DNA of 64,000 nucleotides, taken from Kordiimonas aquimaris (GTDB lineage: Bacteria > Pseudomonadota > Alphaproteobacteria > Sphingomonadales > Kordiimonadaceae). How positions within the stretch are numbered: position 1 is the first letter of the stretch; every line of letters begins with the position of its first letter. The notes below the pieces were generated by a model, which searched no databases, was not told the origin of the DNA, and saw only the letters and a list, made by a program, of their open reading frames with translations. Location: assembly GCF_025574485.1 (NCBI RefSeq), contig NZ_JAOBPO010000003.1, positions 287,867-351,866 of the forward strand, written 5' to 3'. This document shows positions 25,354 to 62,324 of this stretch, in pieces. The position numbers were made by a program, and so were the translations under genes.

Positions 25354-26031
25354 TTATTGATAATTTAAACATTCGCGCACCAAAGCTTTCGTTACTTTTC
25401 GTCGTCTGGCAAGCGCGTCTTTATCAACAGTTTCCACAAGTTTATGTACCGCAGAAAATGATCTTTCAATATGCTTCAGTATATAATGTATCACATCTAT
25501 ATTCACCTCTAACTGTCTATCAGAAAACAATTTGACAAGAAGCATAATAAGTAAATTATCATCAGGCTCTGTAATTGCTGCAACTGGTACAGTGCCCAGG
25601 CGTGACTTTAAATCTGGTAAAACACGCGGCCACAAAGTTGGCGCATCCTCAGCTGTTACCAACAAAGTCGCCCCTATTTCACTGAGCCAATTGTATAAAT
25701 GAAACAACGCAACATCATCGTAAAGTAAATTACCACATTCATCTTTCTGGTTTACATCATCAAGCACGTAAAAACCTGCAGGCTTCATGGCCGCAATATC
25801 AACGTCCGGCTCAATGAATTCAGCACCAACATCAGCGGCCCAACCATGCAAAAGATGAGATTTTCCGCATGCACGGGGGCCAACAAGCGCCACAAAATGG
25901 TGCGACCACCCCTGCCACCTGCTTATAAACTCAACGGCCTCATTGTTGGAGTCAGAAACAATGAAGTCAGCCATATCGAAGCTAACAGGTGCCTTAAGGT
26001 CCAGCGGTATTTGATTGTTTACTGTAGCCAT
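25354..26031 (-). CDS. hda: Hda-type DnaA-homologous regulator of replication initiation
   Basis: 225 residues, corresponding to the AAA+ domain of DnaA without DNA-binding domain IV. The N-terminus carries QIPLDL (residues 7-12), matching the sliding-clamp-binding motif of Hda proteins. The Walker A region is GPRACGKSHLLHGWA and the Walker B-like strand is FYVLDDVNQ, an acidic pair as in DnaA relatives. Hda with the clamp stimulates ATP hydrolysis by DnaA after initiation. The stop of the AI-2E gene lies 3 bases upstream, so the two are probably co-transcribed, a conserved alphaproteobacterial order. Confidence 0.88.
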   Translation of the reverse strand: MATVNNQIPLDLKAPVSFDMADFIVSDSNNEAVEFISRWQGWSHHFVALVGPRACGKSHLLHGWAADVGAEFIEPDVDIAAMKPAGFYVLDDVNQKDECGNLLYDDVALFHLYNWLSEIGATLLVTAEDAPTLWPRVLPDLKSRLGTVPVAAITEPDDNLLIMLLVKLFSDRQLEVNIDVIHYILKHIERSFSAVHKLVETVDKDALARRRKVTKALVRECLNYQ

Positions 26032-56940: not shown

Positions 56941-57558
56941 ATGCAAGTCATCCTCTTGGAACGAGTAGCTAGACTCGGTCAGATGGGCGATGTTGTTACC
57001 GTTAAAGACGGTTTCGCTCGTAACTTCTTGCTGCCAATGAAGAAAGCTCTTCGCGCAACAGAAAGTAACAAGGCTGCTTTTGAAGCAGACCGTGCTGTTC
57101 TTGAAGCAGAAAACCTGAAACGCAAGTCAGAAGCTGAAAAAGTAGCCGCTGAACTTGTTGCCGTTAAAGTTGCCATGATCCGTGCTGCGGGTGAAAGTGG
57201 TCAGCTTTATGGTTCAGTAACAAGCCGCGATATTGCTGAAGCAGTATCTGAAGCAGGTGTTAAAATTGCACGCAGTCAAGTTGTACTTGATCGTGCGATC
57301 AAAACTCTGGGTTTGCACGGCGTTGTCGTTCAATTGCATCCGGAAGTTTCTGAAACAGTTGTTGTAAACATCGCACGCAGTGCTGATGAAGCTGCAACAC
57401 AGTTTGAGACTGGCTCTGCCGTCATGTCCTCATTTGATGAGGAACAAATTGCTGCTGAGAACGAATTCGTTGAAGAAGTTCCTGAAGACGTTCTTGAAGA
57501 AATAACGGAAGATCAGGACGAAGCTTCTACAGAAGAAGAAAAAACTGAAGAGGCTTAA
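56941..57558 (+). CDS. rplI: 50S ribosomal protein L9
   Basis: 205 residues. The N-terminal rRNA-binding domain ([39 protein letters not shown]) and long connecting helix are standard, followed by the C-terminal domain ([16 protein letters not shown]). A further 45 residues form a strongly acidic tail ([20 protein letters not shown] onward); typical L9 is about 150. AAGGAAGGAG precedes the ATG. It ends the ribosomal operon, with a terminator 18 bases on. Confidence 0.96.
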
Positions 57559-57576
57559 GCTTCTTTTGACCTTTCG

Positions 57577-57606
57577 AAAAAGGCGGCTTTCAAGCCGCCT
57601 TTTTTA
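57577..57606 (+). terminator. intrinsic terminator after rplI
   Basis: AAAAAGGCGGC and GCCGCCTTTTT form a perfect GC-rich stem around a 6-base loop, followed by a T run. It ends the rpsF-rpsR-rplI transcript and separates it from the dnaB promoter region. Confidence 0.92.
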
Positions 57607-57619
57607 TTGCCAAATTATT

Positions 57620-57663
57620 TTATCCCCGTAGTTATCCACCTGTGGATAAAATACTGTGCATAA
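57620..57663. promoter_or_regulatory. cluster of four DnaA-box-like sites upstream of dnaB
   Basis: Within 44 bases there are TTATCCCCG (57620-57628, 7/9 to TTATCCACA), TTATCCACC (57632-57640, 8/9), TGTGGATAA (57641-57649, the exact complement of TTATCCACA) and TGTGCATAA (57655-57663, exact complement of TTATGCACA, which fits TTATNCACA). The second and third abut head-to-head. The flanks are AT-rich. The cluster lies 74-117 bases before the dnaB start codon, so DnaA control of dnaB is the simplest reading; a DnaA-titration site or part of an origin is also possible. Confidence 0.7.
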
Positions 57664-57736
57664 TAGACTCTTATTGCTTGTAGCATAATATGATCAAGCG
57701 CATCATGCCCCGGATATTCAGATTCGAGGTTATAGC

Positions 57737-59263
57737 GTGGAAAATATACAAGTCTCAGATGCAGCCAACGATTCAGGTGATCAGCTTAATTACCGGCAGC
57801 CCCCTCATAACCTTGAAGCTGAGCAAGCTATTTTAGGTGCCATTCTCGTCAACAATGAAGCAGCTCAAAAGGTACAGGGGTTCCTGTTACCTGAACATTT
57901 CTACGAACCAGTTCATGGGCGCATTTACGAGTCTGTTCTAAAACTAATGGACAAGAATCAGATTGCTGACCCTGTTAAACTGAAGCCATATTTCGAGAGC
58001 GATGAAGCGCTTGTAGATGTTGGTGGTGCTCAGTATCTAGTCAGGCTTGCTGCCAGTGCGGCAACAATTATCAATACTGAAGATTATGGTCGTACGATCT
58101 ATGATTTGGCCACGCGGCGTTCACTGATTCAAATCGGCGAAGAAATGGTAAACGACGCCTACGATGCGCCAATAGACATTGAAGCCAGTGAACAGATTGC
58201 GGATGCTGAGAAACAATTGTTTGATCTGGCAGAACTTGGTCAGGCAGATTCTGGTGCACAAACGTTTTCACGTGCCCTGAAAACCGCTGTTGAAAGTATT
58301 GAGAGCGCATATAAAGACCCTGACAGTTTATCCGGTGTTACCACTGGCCTTACAAAACTGAACGAACAGATAGGCGGTCTTCATAAGTCTGACCTCATGA
58401 TCCTGGCTGGGCGCCCTGCGATGGGTAAAACAGCGCTTGCAACCAATATCGCATTCAATGCCGCCAAGCGTTGGGCAGATGACATTGTCGCTGGCGTGGA
58501 CATGGAACGTTCAAAAGGTTCGGTAGTTTGCTTCTTCAGTCTAGAGATGTCCGCCGATCAGTTAGCAGCACGGATACTTTCCGACCGGGCTAACCTGCAT
58601 TATCAGGGTGCAGACCCTATTCAGTCGCACGCTATGCGTCAGGGAAAGTTATCAGAAGATCAGTTTCAAGCCATCGCACGCGCTGCTATTGAAATGGAAG
58701 ATGTTCCCCTCTTTATTGATGATACACCTGCTCTATCGATTGCAGGCCTTCGCACGCGAGCAAGACGTTTGAAGCGACAACACAAGCTTGGTTTAGTTGT
58801 CGTAGATTATCTTCAATTGCTGCGCGGCAGTGCAAAAGGCGGAAACGAAAATCGTGTCCAAGAAATTTCGGAAATTACACGGGGACTCAAAGGCTTAGCT
58901 AAAGAACTTCATGTTCCAGTTCTAGCTCTGTCACAGTTGAGTCGGCAAGTGGAACAGCGTGAAAACAAGCGGCCTATGCTGTCTGATCTTCGAGAGTCCG
59001 GCTCTATTGAGCAAGACGCAGATATGGTTATGTTTGTATTCCGTGAAGAATATTACAAGGAAAAAGACGAGCCATCCATGTCAGAGGCAGACAAGCATGC
59101 CCTTTGGCAAGCGGAGATGGCAGAGCTATACGGCAAAGCCGAGGTTATCATTGGCAAACAGCGTCACGGCCCCGTAGGTACCGTGAGACTAGGCTTCAAG
59201 AAAGAAGTAACACGTTTCACTGATCTGATTGATGAAGACCATTTGCCAGATCAACATTTCTAA
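57737..59263 (+). CDS. dnaB: replicative DNA helicase DnaB
   Basis: 508 residues. DnaB is the hexameric 5'-3' helicase of the replication fork. The N-terminal domain (PPHNLEAEQAILGAILVNNE) binds primase; the RecA-like C-terminal domain has Walker A AGRPAMGKTALATNIAF, the H1a glutamate in CFFSLEMSADQLAARIL, Walker B LVVVDYLQLLRG, and the arginine-finger region KQRHGPVGTVRLGF. A short insert (DDIVAGVDMERSKG) after the first helicase motif is of the kind seen in other alphaproteobacterial DnaB proteins. No intein is present. It has its own 130-base upstream region with the DnaA-box cluster. Confidence 0.97.
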   Translation: MENIQVSDAANDSGDQLNYRQPPHNLEAEQAILGAILVNNEAAQKVQGFLLPEHFYEPVHGRIYESVLKLMDKNQIADPVKLKPYFESDEALVDVGGAQYLVRLAASAATIINTEDYGRTIYDLATRRSLIQIGEEMVNDAYDAPIDIEASEQIADAEKQLFDLAELGQADSGAQTFSRALKTAVESIESAYKDPDSLSGVTTGLTKLNEQIGGLHKSDLMILAGRPAMGKTALATNIAFNAAKRWADDIVAGVDMERSKGSVVCFFSLEMSADQLAARILSDRANLHYQGADPIQSHAMRQGKLSEDQFQAIARAAIEMEDVPLFIDDTPALSIAGLRTRARRLKRQHKLGLVVVDYLQLLRGSAKGGNENRVQEISEITRGLKGLAKELHVPVLALSQLSRQVEQRENKRPMLSDLRESGSIEQDADMVMFVFREEYYKEKDEPSMSEADKHALWQAEMAELYGKAEVIIGKQRHGPVGTVRLGFKKEVTRFTDLIDEDHLPDQHF

Positions 59264-60007: not shown

Positions 60008-61188
60008 TTAGTAAACCCTTCTTTTGAACACCCGCCTTGCTTGGCAACAGCCTCGCTAATTTTTGATATAGCATAATCAATTTCGCCGTCTGTTGTTTGG
60101 CGCCCTATTCCAAGCCTGAGTGATGATTTCGCCTCAGAATCAGAAAGGCCAATGGCCTCTAGAACGTATGATGGGCCCGTCGTTGCAGAGGCGCATGCTG
60201 CGCCGCTTGATACAGCCAACCCACGAACATCTGCAAACAATCTGTCCCCATCTAGCCCAGGAAAGCATACATTCAAATTTCCTATCCAACGGCTGCCTGT
60301 ATCACCATTGATAATCATACCAGGTGCCGCTTTTTTCAGGCCAGCAATCAAACGTATCATCATCGTTCGCAGGCGCCCTTCTTCCTGGGCCATTTCCTGC
60401 CCACAAATTTGAGCAGCCTTACCAAACCCTGCAACAAGTGCAGGAGCTTGCGTGCCTGCTCTTAATCCACCTTCCTGTCCCCCACCTAGCATCTGAGGCT
60501 CTAGTGCCGTTTTATGTGAACGGCGGCGATACAATGCTCCAATTCCCTTGGGGCCATATATTTTATGAGCAGAAATACTCATAAAATCGATATTCATTTT
60601 ATCCACAGCTATGGGAATTTTACCGTAAGCTTGAGCGGCATCAGTGTGAAACAGAACCTCTTTTTCTCGGCAAAGCGCGCCAATTTCATGCAACGGATGA
60701 ATAACACCAATCTCGTTATTTACAGCCATTACAGACACAAGCGCCGTTTCTGATGTGATAGATGCTTTTAGTTGTTTCAGGTCTATCAACCCGTTACGTC
60801 CAACCGGTAAAAAAGTTACATTAAAACCACGCCTTTCCCATGACACAGCAGCTTCCAAAACACACTTGTGTTCAGTGGCTACTGTAATCAAATGAGGTTG
60901 TTTCTCGCCCCATACATCAAGTACACCCTTTAAGGCCAGATTGTTGGCTTCGGTTGCTCCTGATAGAAATGTTATGGTTTCTGCTTGAGCACCAACAACT
61001 TTAGCAACCTGTTCTCTTGCAACATCCAAAGCAACTTCGGCCTCCCAACCAAAACGATGCTCTGCGGAATGTGGGTTACCAAACTTGGTTGTAAGATATG
61101 GCATCATGGCAGCTAGCACACGTTCATCTAACGGTGTTGTAGACTGATAATCCATATAAGCAGATTGTATCAAAGAACCATCATCCAT
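60004..61188 (-). CDS. cysteine desulfurase (NifS/IscS class), second of tandem pair
   Basis: 394 residues. It takes sulfur from cysteine to a persulfide. The Schiff-base Lys is in SISAHKIYGPKGIGALY, phosphate-binding residues in FLSGATEANNLALKG, and the sulfur-carrying Cys loop is AVSSGAACASATTGPSYVLEA, somewhat different from the usual SSGSACSSG. It shares one base with the upstream desulfurase (TAATG) and overlaps fdx by 4 bases. The pair has separate sequences in all regions, so it is an old duplication. Confidence 0.92.
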   Translation of the reverse strand: MDDGSLIQSAYMDYQSTTPLDERVLAAMMPYLTTKFGNPHSAEHRFGWEAEVALDVAREQVAKVVGAQAETITFLSGATEANNLALKGVLDVWGEKQPHLITVATEHKCVLEAAVSWERRGFNVTFLPVGRNGLIDLKQLKASITSETALVSVMAVNNEIGVIHPLHEIGALCREKEVLFHTDAAQAYGKIPIAVDKMNIDFMSISAHKIYGPKGIGALYRRRSHKTALEPQMLGGGQEGGLRAGTQAPALVAGFGKAAQICGQEMAQEEGRLRTMMIRLIAGLKKAAPGMIINGDTGSRWIGNLNVCFPGLDGDRLFADVRGLAVSSGAACASATTGPSYVLEAIGLSDSEAKSSLRLGIGRQTTDGEIDYAISKISEAVAKQGGCSKEGFTK

Positions 61189-62324
61189 TAGCTAGACCGG
61201 TTATCTTGTCGTTTAGCGGTGCGTTTATAAAGTTCCGTCCACGCATCAATCAGTGCGTCAATATCACTCTCTTTCGTTAATCGACCGAGGGAAACACGGA
61301 TAGATGCCTCTGCAACACCATCATCAAACCCCATAGCAGATAAAACGTGCGAAACTTTGACCTTGCCTGAAGAACAGGCTGAACCTGACGAAAGGCAAAT
61401 TCCCTTCAAGTCAAAATGCATTGTTTGTGTTTCGCCGCGAACACCAGGCATGGCAACACAGCTTGTGTTTGCAACACGGGCAGCATTTGCTCCCACAATT
61501 ATTGCGTCACTGTTAAGCGCAGCAACTGCTTCTTCAAAGCGATCACGCAACCCTGACAAAAACTCAGCGTTGCCAGTCTCCTCAAGGGTTTCAATAGCCG
61601 CGACGCCAAATCCAGCAATACCAGCAACATTTTCTGTACCTGACCTGCGGCCAAGCTCCTGACCACCCCCAACTATCATCGGGCGCAAAGGCGCAGTTGA
61701 GCTTGTTACTATGGCACCAACACCTTGCGGACCACCAATTTTATGACTGGACAAAGTCAGATAATCCACACCGAGTTCGCCGAAGTTAATTGTTAGCTTA
61801 CCGGCAGCTTGCACTGCGTCAGTGTGCATACGGCCACCGTACTCATGTGTTAGTGCCGCAGTCTCAGCAACCGGCTGAATAACACCGGTTTCATTATTCA
61901 CAAGCATAACGGAAACAAGCGCCGGTTTTGGAGCATCAGCTAGAATCAACTGCAGTTTTTCAAGGTCAATAACACCGTTTTCATCAACCGGCGCAACAAA
62001 ACAAGGAATATTGGCTTGCTTAGCAGCAGCAAGGCCGCTGTCATGTTCAATTGCAGAGACAATAACAGAAGCACTACCTGAGCCTTTTATAACCGCGTTA
62101 TTAGCCTCGGTTCCACCAGAACAAAATGTAACGTCGCGTGTTCTTGCCGCCACCAAAGCAGCAACCTTTGCCCTTGCTTCTTCGACTATGCCCCGCGCTT
62201 TACGGCCTGCCGCATGTACGGAAGAAGGGTTGCCATAAATCCGCATTGTGTCAGCAACCACAGTGATGACATTTTCGCGAATCGGTGCCGTCGCGTTATA
62301 ATCTATGTATATTGGTGTGTTCAT
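61188..62324 (-). CDS. cysteine desulfurase (NifS/IscS class), first of tandem pair
   Basis: 378 residues from the ATG at 62324 (MNTPIYIDYNATAPI), preferred over an in-frame start at 62381 because the family begins this way. CSGGTEANNAVIKG, the Lys block LSSHKIGGPQGVGAIV and the Cys loop CLSSGSACSSGKVKVSHVLSA are all canonical. It heads the desulfurase-desulfurase-fdx operon. Adjacent Isc/Suf scaffold genes are not in the window, though such genes often lie next to the COG2945 hydrolase upstream. Confidence 0.93.
   Translation of the reverse strand: MNTPIYIDYNATAPIRENVITVVADTMRIYGNPSSVHAAGRKARGIVEEARAKVAALVAARTRDVTFCSGGTEANNAVIKGSGSASVIVSAIEHDSGLAAAKQANIPCFVAPVDENGVIDLEKLQLILADAPKPALVSVMLVNNETGVIQPVAETAALTHEYGGRMHTDAVQAAGKLTINFGELGVDYLTLSSHKIGGPQGVGAIVTSSTAPLRPMIVGGGQELGRRSGTENVAGIAGFGVAAIETLEETGNAEFLSGLRDRFEEAVAALNSDAIIVGANAARVANTSCVAMPGVRGETQTMHFDLKGICLSSGSACSSGKVKVSHVLSAMGFDDGVAEASIRVSLGRLTKESDIDALIDAWTELYKRTAKRQDNRSS

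Follow-up and report, generated by a model that had tools for sequence, protein, structure and literature searches.

A conserved cluster of DnaA boxes upstream of dnaB in Kordiimonas aquimaris, probably a regulatory element of the dnaB promoter

The response of dnaB to delayed expression of dnaA in C. crescentus reportedly goes back to Hottes et al. 2005. In a review (PMC8203912) a DnaA regulon of this species, found by delaying dnaA expression, is described as including both dnaQ and dnaB, with predicted DnaA boxes upstream of the two genes, and since dnaB is reported there as a member of the regulon, the kind of link discussed below is already known. According to another paper (PMC3193534), DnaA directly activates hdaA, gcrA, ftsZ and mipZ in C. 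crescentus, and the last three are perhaps better activated by DnaA-ADP. A literature search gave no paper surveying a whole class for DnaA boxes in front of dnaB, and none combining Kordiimonas and DnaA, both being weak negatives as many subscription papers were outside its scope. What is new here is, at the level of sequence, the conservation across the class, the box variant TTATCCCC and the layout of the element.

The rplI-dnaB intergenic region

The window, i.e. the whole stretch of 64,000 nucleotides that was analysed, contains between rplI and dnaB of Kordiimonas aquimaris (Kordiimonadaceae) a gap of 178 bases, 57559-57736, in and around which the following features were found:

56941-57558, plus strand: rplI (ribosomal protein L9), the upstream gene; open reading frame with Pfam Ribosomal_L9_N and Ribosomal_L9_C
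57576-57609, plus strand: hairpin of 13 pairs followed by a T run; folding gave -19.8 kcal/mol, z -4.62
57617-57663, no strand assigned: conserved DnaA-box block of 47 bp, from -24 to +22 when counted from the dyad, as profiled in 26 family genomes
57620-57628, plus strand: box 1, TTATCCCCG, 7/9 match, read from the sequence; mostly TTATCCCCA in the 26 profiled family genomes
57632-57640, plus strand: box 2, TTATCCACC, 8/9 match, from the motif scan; TTATCCCCC in many relatives
57641-57649, minus strand: box 3, TTATCCACA, exact 9/9 match, from the motif scan; TTTTCCACA in many relatives
57655-57663, minus strand: box 4, TTATGCACA, exact 9/9 match, from the motif scan; degenerate in the family profile
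57678-57683 (-35) and 57701-57706 (-10), plus strand: putative and weak dnaB promoter, TTGTAG-N17-CATCAT, by eye and positional analogy
57689-57694, plus strand: alternative -10-like sequence TATGAT, by eye
57737-59263, plus strand: dnaB, replicative helicase and presumed target gene; open reading frame with GTG start, Pfam DnaB and DnaB_C

The four boxes lie within 44 bases (57620-57663), two forward and two reverse, and boxes 2 and 3 abut head-to-head, making TTATCCAC-CT-GTGGATAA. Both forms of box 3 match the generic motif TTWTNCACA. The motif scan of the window allowed at most one mismatch, hence the direct reading of box 1, and the two together bore out the preliminary description of the cluster as two exact boxes, one 8/9 and one 7/9 match, with a head-to-head pair, in a gap of this size. 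That chance would rarely give such a cluster also held: when 150 trinucleotide surrogates were made from the window, none had two exact boxes and one near box within 44 bp, and three had three near boxes within 44 bp. Boxes with at most one mismatch are fewer in the window than expected from shuffling (53 compared with a mean of 74), the exact ones amount to four, and in the whole genome the count of exact boxes is little above that of the reversed pattern (145 vs 129). Among the 100 of the 145 exact genome boxes that were listed, boxes 3 and 4 form the sole pair less than 100 bp apart. A further 49.6 kb of other intergenic DNA, i.e. segments of at least 40 nt outside open reading frames of at least 90 aa in K. 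aquimaris and one relative, oriC excluded, had no segment with two exact boxes, no copy of TTATCCCC and no enrichment of DnaA boxes over the reversed motif (5 vs 10). Exact TTATNCACA boxes are also located at 60599-60607 and 61894-61902, at most 4.3 kb downstream of the cluster and inside two minus-strand open reading frames.

Along the gap the order is terminator-like hairpin, DnaA boxes, putative promoter and dnaB. The hairpin at 57576-57609 is likely an intrinsic terminator of the rplI operon, and a comparable G+C hairpin with a T run could be seen by eye at the rplI end of the upstream alignment in many relatives; the terminator scan reported nothing at this position. With the rplI operon terminated there, dnaB would need a promoter of its own. 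A scan for consensus sigma-70 promoters gave none on the plus strand of the window. When the family was scanned automatically, with no shuffle control, and with the anchor misplaced in two of the 27 genomes and missing from another two, a -10-like hexamer was found 59-60 nt past the T of TGTGGA in 15 genomes; where there are insertions it is found at +70, +71 and +89, and the -35 is poor in several family relatives. These distances are suggestive of helical phasing between the element and the -10, but as the latter was partly picked by eye the phasing was set aside and is not used as evidence. The dyad would be located near -72 relative to the inferred dnaB transcription start.

An RNA leader was considered for the same region and rejected: the Rfam matches are below their gathering scores (the best with 32.2 of 55 bits) and three of the five are on the minus strand over the element, which folds with a z of -2.04 and precedes the inferred promoter; moreover, the variants of box 2 break the palindrome in many relatives.

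The preliminary description had further raised a possible loop linking initiator state and helicase supply through Hda, encoded in the same window:

25354-26031, minus strand: Hda-like gene; full-length NCBIfam match of 130.6 bits, below the cut-off of 194.8, Hda_lid found

Before this Hda-like gene, and with the same orientation, lies a gene for an AI-2E transporter. A link beyond proximity was not supported, no DnaA box with at most one mismatch being found between 25430 and 27933, before either the Hda-like or the AI-2E gene.

Conservation of the boxes upstream of dnaB

The family set consisted of 29 genomes, K. aquimaris and 28 further ones of the same family, and dnaB was located in 27 of them, being missed in G013 (76% complete) and G018 (93%). 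The closest dnaB sequences among named records are those of an uncultured Kordiimonas (89% identity), Kordiimonadaceae MAGs and Kordiimonas laminariae. The first upstream scoring took dnaB loci on the plus strand, while those on the minus strand were scored in the alignment and composite steps. Alignment of the upstream sequences revealed one strongly conserved block in addition to the hairpin and T run toward rplI; it has 13 invariant columns among 26 genomes (G007 omitted) and conservation drops toward background on either side of its 47 bp. A composite taken from this alignment, TTATCCCC-N4-TTATCCMCC-TGTGGAWAA with 26 scored positions, scores at least 22/26 upstream of dnaB in 26 of the 27 genomes, which, as the composite was built from the very alignment that is scored, is a description and no test. 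The exception is G007 with 14/26. The boxes are thus conserved in close relatives, the lack of which had been named in the preliminary description as a ground for giving up its reading.

The palindrome as such is not strictly conserved: box 2, which alternates between CAC and CCC, often deviates from an exact DnaA box, and the family profile of box 4 is degenerate. With one mismatch allowed the palindromic core pattern was found at 35 places in 24 of the 29 family genomes, 22 of them at dnaB and the other 13 in different positions. Of the 18 places free of mismatches all but one (17) are at dnaB, the reversed core pattern used as control giving three places in the 29 genomes. In three loci (L012, L015 and L102) about 1.1 kb separates rplI from the element, which still adjoins dnaB.

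Outside the window the 18-mer TTATCCACCTGTGGATAA occurs once more without mismatch, at positions 1501-1518 of locus L129 (G000:C20:225818-225835), at the start of an ATPase-like gene with a weak AAA_22 match. The same locus has a gene with a match to PF18628 (viral coat protein P2, N-terminal domain), and it is probably a corticovirus-like prophage carrying the dnaB palindrome, situated close to where the skew changes at the presumed terminus.

For the class at large the generic motif TTWTNCACA was applied to dnaB upstream regions of alphaproteobacteria outside the family, of which 154 out of 157 could be scored. Two of the others begin late in dnaB (L057 and L059) and one gave no match (L256), while L034 was retained; its dnaB is 50% identical to that of the window and grouped with the alphaproteobacterial ones, the contig title reading Geothrix sp. 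MAG, and the bin may carry a wrong label or be a mixture. The 154 regions came from a homologue search (46) and a class search (108), so that species may overlap; in the class search 241 genomes matched, K. aquimaris included, and 109 upstream regions were taken, made up of 29 loci and 80 stretches picked from the higher-scoring matches listed.

Exact boxes were found in 48 of the 154 regions and the reversed motif in three, while 200 permuted motifs gave a mean of 1.6 and a highest count of 17, the latter for a motif that contains TTATCCA in a different register. With at most one mismatch the figures are 114 vs 34 for the reversed motif, and a mean of 28.9 for the permuted motifs, the top two of which reached 79 and 78. 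A near box or TTATCCCC is present in 127 regions and neither of them in 27, and the exact box is missing from 106. As related genomes are not independent, such counts of genomes exaggerate the number of events. The boxes are mostly oriented forward (152 plus vs 52 minus). Certain spacings recur, counted without a null: convergent 12 (five times) and 21 (seven times), tandem 9 (11 times) and reverse-tandem 15 (three times), and close to these are, in the family, the 21 between boxes 1 and 3 and the 14-15 between boxes 3 and 4. In L019 three gapless tandem box-like 9-mers are located about -105 to -79 before dnaB. Taken together, the predicted link between DnaA boxes and dnaB is class-wide in Alphaproteobacteria.

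Outside the class the best 30 of 160 matches to E. coli DnaB, presumably Gammaproteobacteria, were used as an E. coli-like set, and none of these 30 genomes has an exact box before dnaB, near boxes being as common as with the reversed motif (16 vs 16). In the 300 bp before dnaB of E. coli itself an exact box is likewise lacking, and there is a single box with one mismatch at -215. The 27 non-alphaproteobacterial loci of the homologue search (L063-L089) comprise 21 that were counted as Bacteroidota and six from other phyla. The Bacteroidota, a small set uncorrected for kinship, have 16 exact boxes in 12 of the 21 loci vs two in two loci for the reversed motif (permuted motifs: mean 0.6, maximum 4), and 55 vs 26 boxes with one mismatch. 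Loci of this group with exact boxes before dnaB include L064, where phoH is a neighbour, L068, L075 and L078, the last with four box-like sites, two of them exact, at most 100 bp from the dnaB start.

Words shared with oriC, chromosomal position and alternative explanations

Alphaproteobacterial origins are located beside hemE. This gene was found in 28 of the 29 family genomes, and the 650 bp upstream of it contain at least two exact boxes in all 28 and 4-15 boxes with at most one mismatch. The top enriched 8-mers before hemE are ATCCACAG, TATCCACA, CCTGTGAA, GTGGATAA, CCTGTGGA, GTTATCCA and TTATCCCC, and when 8-mers were searched de novo before dnaB of the 154 other alphaproteobacteria the top ones were CCTGTGGA, ATCCACAG, TATCCACA, GTGGATAA and TTATCCCC, i.e. 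DnaA-box words. In the family the density of TTATCCCC is 5.05 per kb before dnaB, 1.54 in oriC and 0.01 in a background of 99.7 kb, and in other alphaproteobacteria it is 0.95 per kb before dnaB vs 0.005, both backgrounds being mostly coding DNA; the 20-kb samples of G012 are above that background with 15 copies in 400 kb. Before the family dnaB the density of six of the seven words exceeds that of the background by a factor of 27-505, and that of the seventh, GCCTGTGG, by a factor of eight. A profile search with PF00308 gave one DnaA in the K. aquimaris genome, and it carries FGGRDHTTVMHA, keeping GGRDHTTV, which we take to be its box-recognition motif. The reader of the words in the element would most likely be DnaA.

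Samples of GC skew placed the origin elsewhere than at dnaB. In G012 hemE (549 kb) falls in the interval of 444-640 kb over which the skew changes from minus to plus, and dnaB (2.548 Mb) in that of 2.44-2.64 Mb, over which it changes back; a single sample, at 1.05 Mb, is contrary. In K. aquimaris the turn to plus on contig C1 is at 390-440 kb, with hemE at 429 kb, and on contig C20 the change from plus to minus is at about 200-250 kb, about 100-150 kb before dnaB at 346 kb, with a contrary sample at 100 kb. In five single-contig family genomes (G001, G005, G012, G023 and G028) dnaB is found at 0.87-0.99 of the way from hemE to its antipode. A distance search covered 18 genomes, four of them E. 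coli-like and left out; the other 14, alphaproteobacteria from outside the family, gave a median of 0.79, with 13 above 0.5 and G193 as the exception (0.03). For these 14 hemE is assumed to be the origin marker, and the genome lengths used include four rounded values and four that refer to the main contig. In the family dnaB is thus located near the terminus, at the opposite end of the replicon from oriC.

That the cluster could be an unrecognised origin, or a part of one, had been suggested by the preliminary description, and the AT-rich flanks of the boxes would suit it. This is extremely improbable, since K. aquimaris already has a box- and AT-rich region between the PF03618 gene and hemE, on a contig other than that of dnaB, the box-rich region before hemE recurs in 27 relatives, the skew turns at hemE in both genomes sampled and dnaB is near the terminus. 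A second suggestion, a titration site that merely lowers free DnaA without acting on dnaB, would be in keeping with several boxes close together and with a site near the terminus, which would double late in the cycle. Its capacity is however small (2 of the 145 exact boxes of the genome), and the tie of the element to the dnaB start, kept even where rplI is distant and found class-wide, would be left unexplained, so that titration as the sole function is considered very unlikely. Scarcely better placed is a site resembling DARS or datA, at which the nucleotide of DnaA would be exchanged or hydrolysed at opposed boxes and the proximity to dnaB would be incidental. The genome has an Hda-like gene, and as in the E. 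coli DARS1 and DARS2 stretches, which we take to be the cores and which were placed with the help of their reported shared spacing (the presumed DARS1 pattern was located in the E. coli bioD-uvrB gap), opposed boxes are followed by a second reverse box. According to PMC8682772 and PMC5742627, DARS cores read > < <, which is also the arrangement of boxes 2, 3 and 4, and the latter paper adds that boxes II and III face box I at a common spacing. The spacing seen in the two E. coli stretches, > 0, < +14, < +26, is not the one of the dnaB element (-12, 0, +9, +23 for its four boxes), the steps being 14 and 12 in E. coli and 9 and 14 here, and membership among DARS was rejected on this ground; moreover, the boxes of other alphaproteobacteria are mostly forward, yet the link to dnaB persists. 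In datA the essential boxes share one direction (PMC5742627), whereas here two are forward and two reverse.

It is also improbable, if less so than the three explanations above, that dnaB is controlled by another protein reading the TTATCC/CTGTGGA words or by DnaA acting as a repressor. The most conserved words outrun the 9-mer (CCTGTGGA and TTATCCCC) and box 1 matches in only 7-8 of nine positions, which would suit another reader; on the other hand, the same extended words rank top at oriC, where DnaA is the expected reader, and we know of no second reader of these words.

Proposed control of dnaB and comparison with known systems

DnaA control of the helicase gene, the remaining suggestion of the preliminary description, appears well supported through conservation, position and the words shared with oriC. 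The boxes are situated just upstream of the gene and are conserved with it beyond chance, and the element was classified as a putative DnaA-regulated promoter because of its likeness to the C. crescentus regulon and a spacing unlike that of DARS. The cluster is probably a conserved element through which DnaA, by binding, regulates the dnaB promoter: binding of DnaA to it is very likely, control of dnaB transcription by it can be expected with good confidence, and as to the direction, activation by DnaA is moderately favoured over repression. Activation is preferred to steric repression as the boxes precede the putative -35 instead of covering it, a position that depends on the inferred promoter and cannot by itself decide between the two. 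DnaA would occupy the four boxes, about 50-95 bp upstream of the inferred transcription start, the bound DnaA would alter transcription of dnaB and the supply of helicase would then track the state of the initiator.

A conserved cluster of initiator sites before dnaB suggests that DnaA probably also governs the supply of helicase, i.e. the initiator would set the supply of the very helicase that it must load. More tentatively, the DnaA-dnaB wiring may be ancient and class-wide, separately arisen or kept in Bacteroidota and missing, by loss or from the outset, in the E. coli-like group, with the initiator driving a dnaB near the terminus via an oriC-like cassette that consists of TTATCCCC, the opposed pair and the second reverse box. 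If this is true, the helicase stock for the next round would be set by the initiator and not by gene dosage. The box variant TTATCCCC may be of help in finding alphaproteobacterial origins and regulons, and the element of 47 bp can be named as one open to testing, in contrast to E. coli dnaB with its lack of an exact box in 300 bp.

When compared with the family oriC (PF03618 gene - oriC - hemE), the dnaB element shares TATCCACA, CCTGTGGA and TTATCCCC with it, while oriC is longer and lies at the opposite chromosome pole in complete relatives. The promoters of hdaA, gcrA, ftsZ and mipZ in C. crescentus have one to six DnaA boxes (PMC3193534), and their target genes differ from dnaB. The closest counterpart is dnaB of C. 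crescentus itself: predicted DnaA boxes are located upstream of both this gene and Kordiimonas dnaB, the two belonging to different families and the latter having an element of four boxes, two of which abut head-to-head, together with the variant TTATCCCC. The response in transcription is reported for C. crescentus dnaB only, whereas the Kordiimonas element is known from its sequence, and the transcriptomic link described in the review would now be visible as a conserved cis element across the class.
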